The position numbers and the translations under genes are program-made. A stretch of 64,000 bases of DNA from an uncultured Eubacteriaceae bacterium (lineage in GTDB: Bacteria; Bacillota; Clostridia; Lachnospirales; CAG-274), in contig CAMVJD010000003.1 in NCBI GenBank assembly GCA_947167715.1, forward strand, positions 1-64,000, in the 5' to 3' direction. A model generated the notes under the pieces. The model made no database searches. It was not told the origin of the DNA and was given only the letters and a program-made list of their open reading frames with translations. Of this stretch, positions 55,306 through 64,000 are shown piece after piece. Position 1 is the first letter of the stretch. Each line of letters begins with the position of its first letter.

Positions 55306-55857
55306 ATGAATGGTAAACATAATAACAGCATAACTGTAAAATTAACAAAAAGACAAAATAATAAGCTGAAATTATTATCGTTTGAAGATGGCATAAGCAG
55401 GACTGAACTTATCAGAGAATGCATTACGCTTACGGAGTATAATTCTGTAAAGACCGCGGAATTGGCTGCGCTTGTAACCAAACTGTCGGCTGCTGTTTAT
55501 GAAAATAATATTTATGATGATAATGCGAGTGTAAACATATACATTACAAAACTAAACGAGATAATGGATAGGGATTTGGAACAGTATATATCCAAAGACA
55601 AAAATTATGTAAAAAAGATAACCGTACCGCTTACGGATGCAGAGAAAACACTTATAAAGCAAAGAGCGGCTCAAAATGGTGTTTCCGAATCAAAATATGC
55701 AAGAATGATGATGTTTTGCAAAAACAAATATATCTCTAAAAGAAGGCTTTTGCCTGTCTTGGAGGAACTGAATTACTCTATCAGAAAAATGGATCTTAAA
55801 GGTTGGAACATATCGGAAGTGAAAGGATGGATAATTAAAATATGGAAGTTATTGTAA
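55306..55857 (+). CDS. mobC: MobC-like relaxosome protein
   Basis: 183 residues. The C-terminal half KKITVPLTDAEKTLIKQRAA, then NGVSESKYARMMMF, is a ribbon-helix-helix-like MobC domain, which helps the relaxase nick oriT. The N-terminal half also carries a ribbon-helix-helix-like repeat (ITVKLTKRQNNKLKLLSFED and GISRTELIRE), so the protein seems duplicated internally. It overlaps the relaxase start by 16 bases, the usual arrangement. Confidence 0.7.
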   Translation: MNGKHNNSITVKLTKRQNNKLKLLSFEDGISRTELIRECITLTEYNSVKTAELAALVTKLSAAVYENNIYDDNASVNIYITKLNEIMDRDLEQYISKDKNYVKKITVPLTDAEKTLIKQRAAQNGVSESKYARMMMFCKNKYISKRRLLPVLEELNYSIRKMDLKGWNISEVKGWIIKIWKLL

Positions 55858-56369
55858 AAAATAAGCTAGTTTCAAGAAAAGTCGGATTTAAAAATGTAAA
55901 AATTTATCAAAATCCGGGTGATGTGGAAAGATTGATAAAATATGTTATGGATGAAAACAAGAGAAAAGAGCTGGATATATACGGCTGTATAAACTTAATA
56001 GAAACAGAGCCGCATGAAATGGCTATGGAAATGGAAAAGGTCAAGGAGATATTCGATAAACAAGAGAGCTATCAGATAAAACATCTATGTGTGGATGTGG
56101 GAAAAACTCCGTTTGAAAAGCTTAAAAAGCAAAGGTTCATATACCTGTTTGAACGTGCGCTGGGATATTTCAGAGGCGTGCAAATAGTATATGCCCTGCA
56201 TGAGAATACGGATATTTTACATATTCACCTTATACTTAATACCGTGGATATATATGGCGCTCGTCTTGATCTGAGTGATAATAAGATCAATGGATTTAAG
56301 GAAAATTTTAAAAAGATATTTGAAAAATACTATGGTAATGAGACCGTTCTTATGCTTTTGTTTTACTGA
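55842..56369 (+). CDS. Short MobA/VirD2-type relaxase
   Basis: The 175-residue protein has the HUH metal-binding block in HENTDILHIHLILNTVDIYG, the signature of MOBP-type relaxases. A relaxase Tyr is expected in the N-terminal 30-60 residues; Tyr22 in KIYQNPGD and Tyr34 in KYVMDENK are candidates. No helicase or primase part follows. Relaxases of gut Firmicute elements are often 400 or more residues, so this one is likely truncated at its C-terminus, or a minimal version. Confidence 0.6.
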   Translation: MEVIVKNKLVSRKVGFKNVKIYQNPGDVERLIKYVMDENKRKELDIYGCINLIETEPHEMAMEMEKVKEIFDKQESYQIKHLCVDVGKTPFEKLKKQRFIYLFERALGYFRGVQIVYALHENTDILHIHLILNTVDIYGARLDLSDNKINGFKENFKKIFEKYYGNETVLMLLFY

Positions 56370-57423: not shown

Positions 57424-57539
57424 TATTAAACATTGCAGATTTATTATGTGCGTTATTTAGTACCTTAAATATCATTTGATAGGAGTATATTTCAATCATA
57501 AAAAGATATATTATCCCTGTGTTTAGAAAGGTATACCAT

Positions 57540-57576
57540 AACGAACACACCAAATCTGCCCGTAATTGTGTTCGTT
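57540..57576. promoter_or_regulatory. Inverted repeat upstream of the resolvase
   Basis: AACGAACACA (57540-57549) and its complement TGTGTTCGTT (57567-57576) are separated by 17 bases. Further half-like motifs (AACGAATA at about 57595, TTACGAACA at about 57623) follow. This may be the resolvase's own binding/crossover site or an operator. Confidence 0.5.
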
Positions 57577-57645
57577 AAACACCAACTTTCAAAAAACGAA
57601 TATGTCCGTAAATGGTCAGACCTTTACGAACAGGAAAGGAGAACA

Positions 57646-58269
57646 ATGAGCAGTCGTACTTACTACTATGCACGGGTATCATCCACCGAACAAAATCTTG
57701 ACCGACAGCTGGAAGCGTTCAAAGCTATGGGAGCAGATGACCGAGCCGTAATAACCGACAAGGCAAGCGGTAAAGATTTGGAAAGAGCAGGTTATCAAGC
57801 GTTGAAGTCAACGATTTTGCGTTCCGGAGACACTCTTGTTATCAAAAGTCTGGACAGGTTGTCAAGGAACAAGTCGGACATCAAAGGTGAGCTGGAGTTC
57901 TTCAAACAGCAAGGCATACGGCTTAAGGTGCTTGATCTGCCTACAACACTTATCGATCTGCCTGAAGAACAAAGCTGGATCTTCGATATGATAAACAACA
58001 TTCTTATCGAAGTTCTTGCAAGTATAGCTGAACAGGGGCGTATTACTATACGTCAACGACAGCGTGAAGGCATTGACGCAGCTAAAAAACAAGGCAAACA
58101 TTTAGGTCGAAAGCCTATGTTATATCCTGCCGACTGGGGAGAAAATTATCTTTTATGGAAGGAAGGTGAGATAACCGCAAACGAATTTATGCGAAGGACA
58201 GGGCTGAAAAGAACTACGTTCTACAAGTTAGTAAAAAATTATGAAGAGGTGGACGATATGAGTGAGTGA
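57646..58269 (+). CDS. Serine recombinase (resolvase/invertase type)
   Basis: Start at the ATG at 57646 (SSRTYYYARVSSTEQNLDRQ) with AAAGGAG upstream. The catalytic Ser12 lies in YARVSS. Then KASGKDLERAGYQ, LVIKSLDRLSRNKSDI (the Arg-rich site) and a C-terminal helix-turn-helix (GEITANEFMRRTGLKRTTFY). 207 residues, small resolvase/invertase type, complete. It probably moves or inverts DNA of this element. Zinc-ribbon and amidoligase genes follow with overlap or two-base gap. Confidence 0.9.
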   Translation: MSSRTYYYARVSSTEQNLDRQLEAFKAMGADDRAVITDKASGKDLERAGYQALKSTILRSGDTLVIKSLDRLSRNKSDIKGELEFFKQQGIRLKVLDLPTTLIDLPEEQSWIFDMINNILIEVLASIAEQGRITIRQRQREGIDAAKKQGKHLGRKPMLYPADWGENYLLWKEGEITANEFMRRTGLKRTTFYKLVKNYEEVDDMSE

Positions 58270-58474
58270 TGAATTGATCAAATGCGATTGCTGTGGGAGG
58301 AAGATAAGCAAAAGCAGTGTGATTTCAGGGGTGAATTACGACCTTTTTACAAGCTGTTTTGATAAACATTATACCCGCTGCGACAAGTGTAACTCGGTAA
58401 TCGATGTAAATGATATTTATTGGCGTAAAGGCTGCAAGTATTGCAGTCATTGCTATTTTGAGGAAGGAGAATAA
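58262..58474 (+). CDS. Small zinc-ribbon protein
   Basis: 70 residues with three CxxC pairs: CDCCGRK, CDKC and CKYCSHC, a treble-clef/LIM-like zinc protein. The GTG start overlaps the resolvase stop. It resembles the N-terminal zinc part of the amidoligase just downstream, so it may be a split or duplicated module that binds the same partner. No enzyme site is visible. Confidence 0.7.
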   Translation: MSDELIKCDCCGRKISKSSVISGVNYDLFTSCFDKHYTRCDKCNSVIDVNDIYWRKGCKYCSHCYFEEGE

Positions 58475-58476
58475 AA

Positions 58477-59568
58477 ATGGAACATGACATTATTGTATGC
58501 TGCGAATGCGGCGAGCCTTTATCACATGATGAGGCACTTGAATTTGACGGGAATACCTACTGCCAACATTGCCTGGATGAGGTGACTTTCATCTGTGACT
58601 GCTGCGGGGAGAGGGAATATCTCGATGACGAGGTATGCGATGACAGGATAAGTCTGTGCAGGCGCTGTTATGAGCGGTATTACACCCGATGTGAGGCTTG
58701 CAATCGTTTGATTTATAATGACGATGCCTGCTATTTGAGCGATGACGACGATTATTCGTACTGCTATGACTGCTACAACGAACGTGTCGGGCGAAGTATT
58801 CGTGAGTACAGTTATAAGCCGACGCCCGTATTTTATGGCGAGGGTACACGTTTTATGGGTGTAGAACTTGAAGTTGACGAGGGCGGTCATTCAAACGACA
58901 ATGCAGAGGAGGTGTTTAAGATAGCCAACAGCGAAAAAGAGCATCTTTACATCAAGAGTGACGGGTCGATAAACAGCGGTTTCGAGATAGTTACGCATCC
59001 TATGTCATTGGACTATCATAAAAATCAAATGCCATGGCAGGCGGTAATGGACAGGCTTATAGATATGGGCTATTTAAGTCACAAAACAAGCACCTGCGGA
59101 CTGCACGTTCATGTCAACAGAAATTCTTTGGGAGAAAACTGTACGGAGCAGGAGAATGCCGTTGCAAGGATATTGTACTTTGTGGAGCATAACTGGGATG
59201 AGATGCTGAGGTTTTCAAGACGTACCGAGAGTGCCATGCAGCGTTGGGCAGCAAGGTACGGGACAAAAGGCGATCCCAAAGAACACATAGACAATGCCAA
59301 AAAGGATTATAGCCGTTACCGCTGTATCAACATTCAGAATTATTATACAATTGAGTTTCGCTTGTTCAGAGGAACTCTGAAGTATAACACATTTGTAGCC
59401 ACGTTGGAACTCGTTAATGAGATTTGCAATGTGGCTGTTTCTTTGTCCGATGATGAAATGACGAAACTCACTTGGGAGAAATTCATTGACGGACTCGACA
59501 AGGAAAAGAATGTGGAACTTATCAACTACTTAGGCGAGAGAAATCTTTACAATGGAATGGAGGAATGA
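58477..59568 (+). CDS. Amidoligase with N-terminal zinc ribbons
   Basis: Amidoligases of this family (Amidoligase_2) are predicted to join carboxyl and amino groups with ATP. Residues 1-110 form three zinc units: pairs C8/C11 with C29/C32, C40/C43 with C61/C64, and C72/C75 with C96/C99. The catalytic domain follows with FMGVELEVDEGGHSND (GxExE signature), SDGSINSGFEIVTHPMSLDY, CGLHVHVNRNSL and IEFRLFRGT, the conserved Glu/Arg/His pattern. 363 residues. It overlaps a class II glutamine amidotransferase, so ammonia may come from it. Substrate unknown. Confidence 0.8.
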   Translation: MEHDIIVCCECGEPLSHDEALEFDGNTYCQHCLDEVTFICDCCGEREYLDDEVCDDRISLCRRCYERYYTRCEACNRLIYNDDACYLSDDDDYSYCYDCYNERVGRSIREYSYKPTPVFYGEGTRFMGVELEVDEGGHSNDNAEEVFKIANSEKEHLYIKSDGSINSGFEIVTHPMSLDYHKNQMPWQAVMDRLIDMGYLSHKTSTCGLHVHVNRNSLGENCTEQENAVARILYFVEHNWDEMLRFSRRTESAMQRWAARYGTKGDPKEHIDNAKKDYSRYRCINIQNYYTIEFRLFRGTLKYNTFVATLELVNEICNVAVSLSDDEMTKLTWEKFIDGLDKEKNVELINYLGERNLYNGMEE

Positions 59569-59570
59569 GC

Positions 59571-60542
59571 ATGTGCTGTCTGTTTGGTTTAATTGATTAC
59601 GCGCAATGTTTAAGCGTAAAACGAAAGGAAAAAATAATAAAGGTTCTATCAAGAGAAAGTGAAGTAAGAGGAACTCATGCAACGGGTGTTGCATATTTAA
59701 CGGGAGATAAAATGACTGTTTACAAGCGTCCCAAAGCGGCTCACTCAATGCGCTTTAAATTTGACAGTAATCCACAGGTCATTATGGGTCATTGCCGTTT
59801 CACGACTCAAGGCACAGAGAAGAACAACGAGAACAATCATCCTTTTTACTCGGAAAAGTTAGGCTTTTCTCTTGCCCATAACGGCGTATTATACAATGAT
59901 GTGCTTCTAAGACAGCAGGAGCATCTTCCAAAGCCCAAAATCGAGACCGACAGTTATGTTGCTGTCCAGCTTATAGAAAAGAAGAATACCCTCAGCTTCG
60001 ACAGCCTGAAATATATGGCAGAGAAAGTTGAGGGTTCTTTTTGTTTTACCGTGCTTGACAGGAATAACAATATCTATCTTGTAAAGGGCGATAATCCGCT
60101 TGCTGTCGTGGATGCGGGAGGTTATTATTTATACGCTTCGACCGAGGCCATACTTGCTTCTGCACTTAAAAAGCTTGGCATATATCACTTTGAGCAGATA
60201 AAGCTCGGCGAGGGCGAGATAATGCGTATCGACCGCAACGGCAAGCGTGTGAAAGATACCTTTGAATTTTCCGAACGGTTCTATGGCTTGTGGGGCAGAT
60301 ACGGCGGTTATTATAACTATGGATATTGGAACAGCTCCAAAAGCAAGAAGAATGACGAGTATATAAAACAGTACACAAAAGACCTTATCGACTATGCCGC
60401 TTTGGTAGGTATCGACGAGGACACTATACTCAACCTTATTAAAGACGGGTTCAGTCTTGACGAGATCGAGAACATGATATACGACACAGAATATTATTAC
60501 GAAATGGAGGCGATGTACGATGATGCACTTACTGAAATATGA
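59571..60542 (+). CDS. Class II glutamine amidotransferase
   Basis: Ntn-hydrolase that frees ammonia from glutamine using an N-terminal Cys. The start at 59571 is chosen over an ATG six bases upstream: GGAGGA has correct spacing and it places Cys at position 2 (MCCLFGLID) for exposure. Motifs: RGTHATGVAYL, MGHCRFTTQGT, NNHPF and FSLAHNGVLYND. The C-terminus (about 250-323) is helical and unlike purine or asparagine synthetases. About 323 residues. Overlap and order link it to the amidoligase upstream. Confidence 0.85.
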   Translation: MCCLFGLIDYAQCLSVKRKEKIIKVLSRESEVRGTHATGVAYLTGDKMTVYKRPKAAHSMRFKFDSNPQVIMGHCRFTTQGTEKNNENNHPFYSEKLGFSLAHNGVLYNDVLLRQQEHLPKPKIETDSYVAVQLIEKKNTLSFDSLKYMAEKVEGSFCFTVLDRNNNIYLVKGDNPLAVVDAGGYYLYASTEAILASALKKLGIYHFEQIKLGEGEIMRIDRNGKRVKDTFEFSERFYGLWGRYGGYYNYGYWNSSKSKKNDEYIKQYTKDLIDYAALVGIDEDTILNLIKDGFSLDEIENMIYDTEYYYEMEAMYDDALTEI

Positions 60543-61374
60543 TGATTTCAAAACGGCTCTGCTTAATGGGATAAAAAATTCTCTTCCTGTTGAGTATGGA
60601 AATTACAGCGTTGAGCTGCACAGGATAACCAAGGACAATCAAACTTTTGACGGGATATGTATGCTTGACAAGAACGAGCATACCGCAGTTTCGCCCGTAG
60701 TTTACGCCGAAGAACTGTACAACAGCTACATTGACGGCACAAGTTTGGATAAAGTCATAAAAACAGCAACAAACCTGCTGTTCGGTAATTTTGAGACTGC
60801 AACCGATATGGACCTCGATAATATCAAAGAAAACGTAGTTCCTGTACTAACAGCACAAAAACCGAATGAAAATACGATCCACATACCATTCCTCGATATG
60901 GAGATACTGTTCAGGTGGATAATTAAAAGGGATGAAAACGGCGTTTTCGGTACTATGATAACAAATGAAGTGGCAAAGGCCTTTGCACTTGACACGGATA
61001 ATATTCTCGAAAAAGCAAAAGATAATATGAGAAAAATAATGCCCGTTTCCGTTATGCCGCTTAAAACTGCTATTCCCGAATACAAGTTCAGTTCGGATGA
61101 TATTCCCGTATTTGTGTTAAGCAATAAATACAGCATAGACGGGGCGGCGTATATCCTTGATGAAATCGTTTTGCAGCAGCTTCACGATATTTTCAAAAAG
61201 GATTTTTATATCCTGCTGCCTTGCGTCCATGAGGCACTTATAATCCTAAAAGGTGTTATGAGTGAAAACACACTTAAACAGGCCGCCGAAAACATAGCAC
61301 AAAGTATAACAAACCCCGAAGAAAAACTTACATCCAGCTTATATAAATACAACGGCAGTATTTCATTGATCTGA
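60520..61374 (+). CDS. DUF5688-like protein
   Basis: 284 residues, no enzyme motif. MMHLLKYDDFKTALLNGIKN at the N-terminus and DDIPVFVLSNKYSIDGAAYI in the C-terminal half match the DUF5688 family frequent on gut Firmicute mobile elements. The start overlaps the amidotransferase by 23 bases. Part of its C-terminal region is duplicated at 61505-61596. Its function is unknown. Regular co-occurrence with the amidotransferase suggests a shared regulon or a shared pathway. Confidence 0.7.
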   Translation: MMHLLKYDDFKTALLNGIKNSLPVEYGNYSVELHRITKDNQTFDGICMLDKNEHTAVSPVVYAEELYNSYIDGTSLDKVIKTATNLLFGNFETATDMDLDNIKENVVPVLTAQKPNENTIHIPFLDMEILFRWIIKRDENGVFGTMITNEVAKAFALDTDNILEKAKDNMRKIMPVSVMPLKTAIPEYKFSSDDIPVFVLSNKYSIDGAAYILDEIVLQQLHDIFKKDFYILLPCVHEALIILKGVMSENTLKQAAENIAQSITNPEEKLTSSLYKYNGSISLI

Positions 61375-61425: not shown

Positions 61426-61629
61426 ATGGCAGCATATAGATTTTATTTATTCCTTTGCCCTGTTTCACTGTCGAGTGAAAATAATTTTGTTAATATATCT
61501 CAAATTAAAACCGCCATACCCGAATACAAGTTCAGCTCGGATGATATACCCGTATTTGTGTTAAGCAATAAATACAGCATAGACGGGGCGGCATATTACA
61601 GCTTTCTTTTTTGTTCGCCTATGTTATAA
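61426..61629 (+). pseudogene. Fragment of a second DUF5688 gene
   Basis: Bases 61505-61596 repeat 61061-61152 of the DUF5688 gene with a few changes: EYKFSSDDIPVFVLSNKYSI recurs identically as protein. The rest of the frame is unrelated and lacks a real start. The copy is diverged in third positions, so it is a relic of a paralogue rather than a recent duplication. It was probably truncated by arrival of the amidohydrolase cassette. Confidence 0.7.
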
Positions 61630-63469: not shown

Positions 63470-63566
63470 TGAATAAGTATATTTTTTGTTAAAAAAACGC
63501 TTTGTTTTTTAGCATTGCTCTTATATTTGTTAACATTCTTATAAAAACAATACGGAGGCGATATAA

Positions 63567-63755
63567 ATGCTTGAAAACTATAATGAGGTATTAAAACCCA
63601 ACGATGTATGTAAAATACTGTTAATTGGTAAAGGAACGCTTTACAAGCTGCTTGATTCGGGTGTGCTCAAAGGCTACAAGTCGGGCAAGAACTGGCGTAT
63701 TACCAAACAAGCTGTTATCAACTACTTAAAATCCATGTCTGAGGGAGTCCTGTAA
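63567..63755 (+). CDS. Excisionase-family helix-turn-helix protein, copy 2
   Basis: 62 residues: LKPNDVCKILLIGKGTLYKL, then GYKSGKNWRITKQAVINYLK. This is the same winged-helix type as 55016-55216, with the shared IGKGT turn. Ribosome site GGAGG precedes the ATG. It may be an Xis-like factor or a regulator of the element extending beyond the window. Confidence 0.75.
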   Translation: MLENYNEVLKPNDVCKILLIGKGTLYKLLDSGVLKGYKSGKNWRITKQAVINYLKSMSEGVL

Positions 63756-63808
63756 GGCTCCCTCTATTAAAAATCTCATTTTTGTTTTTAACGGCCACGA
63801 TAACCCTT

Positions 63809-64000
63809 TTAGGAATTGTAGTTGAATGTGGCTTGTTTAGCGGGAAAACTTGAATATACATATACTGTATTATCATTATTCAAAAGTCTTGCACGGCCTA
63901 TAGCCTGTTCCAGTTCGCTTACTATATGGTAGATATGTATTTCTTTAAGTAAATCATCCTCAAAAGTTGAGAAATAAAACTTGTATCTATCATATATGAC
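63809..64000 (-). CDS. C-terminal end of a helicase/primase-like protein (partial)
   Basis: The frame runs off the right edge and gives 63 residues ending FPAKQATFNYNS before the stop at 63809-63811. HIVSELEQAIGRARLLNND resembles motif VI (QxxGRxxR) of superfamily II helicases, followed by TVYVYSSFPAKQ, common at the end of element-borne DNA primase/helicase proteins. The beginning lies outside the window, so the family remains open. Confidence 0.5.
   Translation of the reverse strand, partial: VIYDRYKFYFSTFEDDLLKEIHIYHIVSELEQAIGRARLLNNDNTVYVYSSFPAKQATFNYNS

Follow-up and report, generated by a model that had tools for sequence, protein, structure and literature searches.

The locus described here raises the question of what a predicted amidoligase and a predicted glutaminase, encoded side by side in a bacterial gene cassette, accomplish together, and which of the genes packed around them take part. 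The cassette lies in a stretch of 64,000 nucleotides (the window; contig CAMVJD010000003.1 of assembly GCA_947167715.1) from an uncultured Eubacteriaceae bacterium of the gut, a genome of the Clostridia with nearest relatives of the Ruminococcus type. It comprises a small serine resolvase (RES), a short zinc-ribbon protein (ZNR), an amidoligase with zinc ribbons of its own (AMI), a glutaminase (GAT) and a DUF5688 protein. An initial annotation, made from the sequence of the window, had grouped these five genes; all five open reading frames (ORFs) are present and intact on the + strand, packed within positions 57646-61374, with Pfam matches for RES, AMI, GAT and DUF5688. The real core of the cassette is two genes, AMI and GAT. 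Taken as a whole, we consider it modestly probable that the products of these two genes form a single amidating ligase that depends on glutamine and travels as mobile-element cargo; it would act on a macromolecular acceptor, and RES would regulate its cassette.

The amidoligase-glutaminase core

Relatives of AMI and GAT were searched in a set of 196 related genomes, and a bacterial locus set was taken from a scan of named genomes as the best 80 of at least 567 confirmed AMI relatives; these 80 loci are the closest to the window, and their partner frequencies need not hold family-wide. GAT directly follows AMI at 77 of 79 assessable loci in this set, the remaining three of the 80 consisting of one on a contig that ends too early and two without GAT. 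The linkage is equally tight when approached from GAT. AMI relatives are present in 29 of the 196 related genomes, and every full-length GAT of the AMI-linked subfamily found in that set (23/23) adjoins AMI; other strong GAT matches are fragments or lie at contig ends, except for one distant GAT in genome G175, and the weak matches are proteins of GlmS size. Ordinary Amidoligase_2 proteins in the same genomes had a GAT within 1.5 kb at none of 27 loci. On viral contigs, GAT adjoins AMI at approximately 58 of 80 loci, 29 recognized by profile and 29 because the gene after AMI has both an MC start and the HNG motif, and annotated phages with the pair are Marvin (gp105/106), MEP402 (gp06/07) and MW202733. 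Conservation of the pair extends over hundreds of phages and mobile elements. Because the linkage is reciprocal while ordinary amidoligases lack GAT, the pairing is a property of this AMI subfamily, with representatives in clostridial elements, in mycobacteriophages and in phages from the sea. Pairing of this type was predicted by Iyer et al. in 2009 (doi 10.1039/b917682a, as cited in PMC10580990 and PMC11318856), and the initial annotation had called it a known predicted pairing. The expectation of a conserved gene order in that annotation holds strongly and reciprocally for AMI and GAT and moderately for RES; DUF5688 is optional, and ZNR lacks conservation.

From residue 122 onwards, AMI is predicted to adopt the carboxylate-amine ligase fold of glutamine synthetase. 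Its match to Pfam Amidoligase_2 (PF12224; E 1.5e-10, 41.8 bits against a cut-off of 22) covers residues 152-314. The structure model (predicted local distance difference test, pLDDT, 88) aligns in VIA-align with YbdK (Z 12.2) and glutamine synthetase (Z 11.8), at root mean square deviations of 3.5-4.1 over 188-219 residues, and also with glutamate-cysteine ligase (Z 11.4), and the Foldseek list for the same model also includes PafA and Dop. In the alignment of relatives, E130, E132, K160, E170, H210, H212, R249, N285, E293 and R295 are invariant. Among these, E130, E132, E170, H210, H212, E293 and R295 would be the retained acids, histidines and arginine of the metal and ATP sites, a correspondence to glutamine synthetase that is a motif reading only, profile alignment to the host enzyme having given nothing usable.

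GAT is modelled as a PurF/GlmS-type N-terminal nucleophile (Ntn) glutaminase with a complete catalytic set. Its structure model (pLDDT 86.6) matches PurF (1ao0, E 1.2e-15) and the glutaminase domain of GlmS (E 2.0e-13) in Foldseek. The MC start is invariant in 39 sequences, and the glutamine-binding set C2, R76, N104, G105 and D127 is likewise invariant. An N-terminal Cys after Met1 is a requirement for a class II glutaminase. The GAT ORF (59565-60542) opens with an ATG at 59565, from which it overlaps AMI by 4 nt; a Shine-Dalgarno sequence, GGAGG (59559-59563), lies 1 nt from this ATG and 7 nt from the ATG at 59571. The start is best placed at 59571 because the Shine-Dalgarno spacing then fits and the protein begins Met-Cys.

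Elsewhere in this genome, contig C77 carries a second copy of the cassette, ordered RES-AMI-GAT-DUF5688 and lacking ZNR. AMI and GAT of the two copies share ~81% protein identity, and their nonsynonymous and synonymous divergences (dN/dS) are ~0.12/1.14 for AMI and ~0.09/0.75 for GAT. Both genes are under purifying selection, and this low dN/dS identifies them as working genes.

Knowledge of the two enzyme classes makes ATP-dependent amidation of a carboxylate with glutamine-derived ammonia the likely joint reaction. GAT would hydrolyse glutamine through its N-terminal Cys and release ammonia, which would pass from one subunit to the other; AMI, in its glutamine synthetase-like active site, would use ATP to activate the carboxylate as an acyl phosphate, and attack of the ammonia on this intermediate would give a carboxamide. 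Folds and residues thus give good support to the making of amide bonds, the predicted reaction that had been annotated for the pair.

Variants of the pair were also seen. At L118:1674-3842, a single 723-aa ORF runs from AMI into GAT, representing either a fusion or a lost stop; it was not counted as a true fusion, since an internal Cys could not act as the N-terminal nucleophile. Loci L088 and L089 carry a tandem AMI pair followed by one GAT, each tandem AMI at L081 has its own GAT, and some of the copies at these tandem loci have fewer ribbons.

Resolvase, res site and other partners

The features of the cassette are collected in Table 1. RES and ZNR overlap by 8 nt, ZNR and AMI are separated by 2 nt, and GAT and DUF5688 overlap by 23 nt; together with the 4-nt overlap from the first GAT ATG, these distances agree with the description of the genes as overlapping or nearly so. 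RES starts at its ATG and not at GTG 57568, which falls inside the res site. An Rfam scan found no family in the window, and across eight related loci it gave only a tRNA.

Table 1. Positions of the cassette features within the window
Feature	Position	Strand	Basis
res site: subsites I 57522-57545, II 57571-57600, III 57605-57630	57522-57630	+	half-site repeats
RES, small serine resolvase, 207 aa	57646-58269	+	PF00239 E 5.7e-28; PHROG 125
ZNR, 70 aa, one complete and one incomplete zinc ribbon	58262-58474	+	BLASTP to AMI
AMI, 363 aa, three LIM-like zinc ribbons (~8-99) and predicted ligase domain (122-361)	58477-59568	+	
GAT, 323 aa, predicted class II (N-terminal Cys) glutaminase with helical C-terminal extension	59571-60542	+	GATase_6 9.3e-14
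DUF5688 protein, 284 aa	60520-61374	+	Pfam E 2.1e-48
Remnant of a second DUF5688 gene, 92 bp	61505-61596	+	93% identical to 61061-61152

RES is a genuine companion of the core, occurring in two arrangements and not universally. Small resolvase ORFs across the 80 loci all share the strand of AMI (48/48), and a small resolvase is close by at 43 loci, compared with 8.2 expected at random. It lies upstream in Ruminococcus-type copies and downstream of GAT in others, and is missing in nearly half. Directly before RES, the half-site TCCGTAAAG occurs in three inverted pairs with centre spacings of 52 and 32 bp. Such three-subsite spacing is the res layout of Tn3-family elements. With this half-site, which was picked by eye from these same sequences, the window res mismatches at 17 of 54 positions, where shuffled sequences gave 23 at the fewest, and the best copy (L071) at 8, where the fewest was 21; of ten further resolvase-first copies tested, nine fell below every shuffle and one, L062 (near a contig start), did not. 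Independent support for the site is provided by the recurrence of the half-site at matching offsets and by its occurrence in L139 and L154, where a res site of the same type separates GAT from the RES that follows it. Resolvases downstream of GAT, when searched with this half-site, mostly showed no res-type site, those of L139, L154 and, weakly, L160 being the only ones to do so. The resolvase of the initial annotation stands as a same-strand companion with a res, the site itself being an addition to that annotation.

RES would act on its own three-subsite res, and when bound there would probably also control transcription of the cassette. A competing explanation, to which we assign a substantial chance if somewhat short of even, holds that RES and res are merely the resolution system of the carrier element, functionally unrelated to an AMI-GAT unit. 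The uniform strand and the excess of nearby resolvases over random expectation speak against this, whereas the shifting position of RES, the many loci without it and the occurrence of DUF5688 on its own are what such a carrier system would lead one to expect. This explanation touches RES alone and is compatible with the one given above for AMI and GAT.

A conserved block was observed ~150-250 bp upstream of RES, before res, at L064, L065, L069, L070, L071, L072 and L084. It contains a short palindrome, ATCAGG/CCTGAT or ATTAGG/CCTAAT, in which both arms change together, and a terminator-like hairpin. The block has no Rfam match and is absent from the window, where homology to these copies begins at res site I (57519).

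The remaining partners are less constant. DUF5688 follows GAT in many Ruminococcus-type copies, also occurs alone, and is a common but facultative partner. ZNR, annotated initially as a separate zinc-ribbon protein, does exist as a 70-aa ORF with a sub-threshold LIM match; it is local and was rejected as a conserved partner, being present in the window copy only and absent from the C77 copy. Its match to AMI residues 40-79 (BLASTP E 9e-7) makes it look like a diverged, partly decayed duplicate of the N-terminal ribbons of AMI.

The family DUF960 (PF06124), which had no place in the initial annotation, stands directly before AMI at 37 of the 80 loci, and 10 of the 15 DUF960 genes in related genomes lie beside AMI; it is absent from the window genome. 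DUF960 is also a small gene that SCCmec elements conserve. In SCCmec-type DNA, it is found behind two recombinase genes, between a uracil-DNA glycosylase inhibitor and DUF1643, and these three small ORFs are found in both SCC patterns (PMC7581432). A Staphylococcus aureus plasmid with SCC genes (L279) has this arrangement, a hint that DUF960 is a general mobile-element gene. A role for DUF960 as a Pup-like tag was considered and rejected: its C-terminus TMLLAEEY is also retained by a copy that does not adjoin AMI (L189, with a similar case at L190), and the window genome lacks the family. No gene for a Pup-like tag was found in the window.

Apart from these partners, the genes most often found nearby encode integrases and relaxases, with Phage_integrase in 15 of 87 downstream neighbour proteins, as tyrosine integrases, and Relaxase in 8 of 91 upstream ones; the window itself has a NikA-like relaxase gene and truncated ones at 55306-56369. 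Most likely, the cassette travels as cargo on integrative mobilizable elements. No Tn3 transposase was found among the scanned neighbour proteins, the limits of the elements not having been defined.

Several further observations concern the surroundings. At L105 and L084 (1466-3640, - strand), the frame of a large serine recombinase runs into a SpoVT C-terminal domain, an arrangement that suggests integration into spoVT. The genomes of L071 and L072 are otherwise syntenic, and one of the two has 2.9 kb inserted at the cassette's left edge, including a DEAD-box-like gene (L071:10743-13651 vs L072:10624-10626). An HTH_17 gene region of the window (63532-64000) is repeated ~9.5 kb further along the same contig, at C3:73089-73561 (L083), with 89% identity.

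Zinc ribbons and the candidate acceptor

The first 105 residues of AMI form three four-Cys ribbons, LIM-like in spacing and fold (C8/C11-C29/C32, C40/C43-C61/C64 and C72/C75-C96/C99). The twelve cysteines are invariant or nearly so across 50 relatives, bearing out the three ribbons that had been annotated in the amidoligase. Foldseek matched the ribbons to LMO2/PINCH, and the AMI profile, run against sequences of solved structures, returned only zinc-binding proteins, mostly of LIM type, with weak E-values; the Pfam LIM cut-off of 22.9 bits was reached by neither AMI (17.8) nor ZNR (21.1). Phage relatives of AMI carry variable numbers of CxxC pairs before the ligase domain, mostly 4-14. We infer that the ribbons are a variable docking array for a macromolecular acceptor; this would most likely be a protein, encoded by the host or by an element in competition with this one.

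Our working view, held with modest confidence, is that the target of the pair is a macromolecule of the cytosol and that the element profits from its modification. Two considerations weigh against this view. The ribbon array is the single feature that points to a macromolecular acceptor, and a related ligase can work without either ribbons or GAT, as seen in the AMI lineage of a Clostridioides difficile phage (L198) and loci L254-L258, which has no zinc ribbons and no adjacent GAT. A more specific version, in which acidic side chains of a particular host or competitor protein would be amidated (Asp-to-Asn or Glu-to-Gln type) after recruitment by exchangeable ribbon arrays, with DUF960 as adaptor or target, seems improbable in that exact form.

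Equally doubtful is an acceptor at the cell surface or in peptidoglycan, in which case wall carboxylates would be amidated and competing phages kept out. For the phiEco32 pair, a role in excluding superinfecting phages through amidation of the wall has been suggested (Iyer et al. 2009, as cited in PMC10580990 and PMC11318856); this is the same gene pair, likewise carried by phages and mobile elements, and MurT-GatD amidation of wall peptides is known chemistry (PMC3267633). However, wall or envelope genes are not recurrent among the neighbours (91 upstream and 87 downstream proteins), the MEP402 pair sits beside replication genes, and the LIM-like ribbons point to a cytosolic macromolecule.

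A little less probable still is a reaction cycle modelled on EgtA and EgtC of ergothioneine, in which AMI would couple a carboxylate to an amine or amino acid that GAT, acting as an amidase, would take off again. AMI shares its predicted fold with glutamate-cysteine ligases and amidases do exist among class II Ntn proteins, but GAT retains C2, R76, N104, G105 and D127 and is nearest, in both sequence and fold, to the ammonia-delivering PurF and GlmS. Amidation of a nucleic-acid base or a tRNA-linked carboxylate in place of a protein is very unlikely: zinc ribbons are able to bind nucleic acids and several copies of the C. difficile phage lineage adjoin RlaP, near KptA RNA-repair genes, but that lineage is the one without zinc ribbons and GAT, and genes for RNA or base hypermodification are not recurrent around the cassette. 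The further suggestion of the initial annotation, a defence or signalling module, gained no positive support, as none of the five cassette proteins matches any PADLOC model and restriction-modification genes are occasional neighbours only.

Comparison with known systems

Through this cassette the enzyme pair becomes connected with a resolvase that has a defined res, with gut Clostridia and their integrative elements, and with the DUF960 of SCCmec. The operon is compact and its partners can be listed concretely, which offers a way towards a first substrate. No assigned substrate was found in the literature for the phage pairs noted since 2009, and no paper describing the form with resolvase, zinc ribbons and DUF960 was found in the open-access literature. 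The apparent novelty lies in the array of LIM-like ribbons, the head made up of res and resolvase, the connection with DUF960 and the strength of the pairing as measured here.

The amidoligase-glutaminase pairs of phages (phiEco32, Marvin and MEP402) show the two genes in the same order and combine the same enzyme families, whereas the cassette described here belongs to clostridial integrative elements, carries a resolvase and res, is often accompanied by DUF960 or DUF5688, and has three regular LIM-like ribbons. Its head resembles the res-resolvase modules of the Tn3 family, in which a serine resolvase likewise stands right behind a three-subsite res; it differs from them in that enzyme genes follow the resolvase and no transposase lies beside the cassette in the scanned stretches. 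With YbdK, glutamine synthetase and PafA-Dop, AMI shares the predicted fold of residues 122-361 at ~10-16% identity, and is set apart by the lack of Pup, a dedicated glutaminase subunit and its zinc ribbons. GAT, in turn, shares its predicted fold and catalytic set with the glutaminase domains of PurF and GlmS, from which it differs as a stand-alone subunit with an extra helical C-terminus and no phosphoribosyltransferase or isomerase domain. MurT is related to the Mur ligases and GatD is not a class II glutaminase with an N-terminal Cys, and neither fold is shared with AMI-GAT. The likeness of the two systems lies in their organization, as MurT-GatD too is a two-gene combination of ligase and glutaminase that carries out glutamine-dependent amidation (PMC3267633 and PMC5871853).

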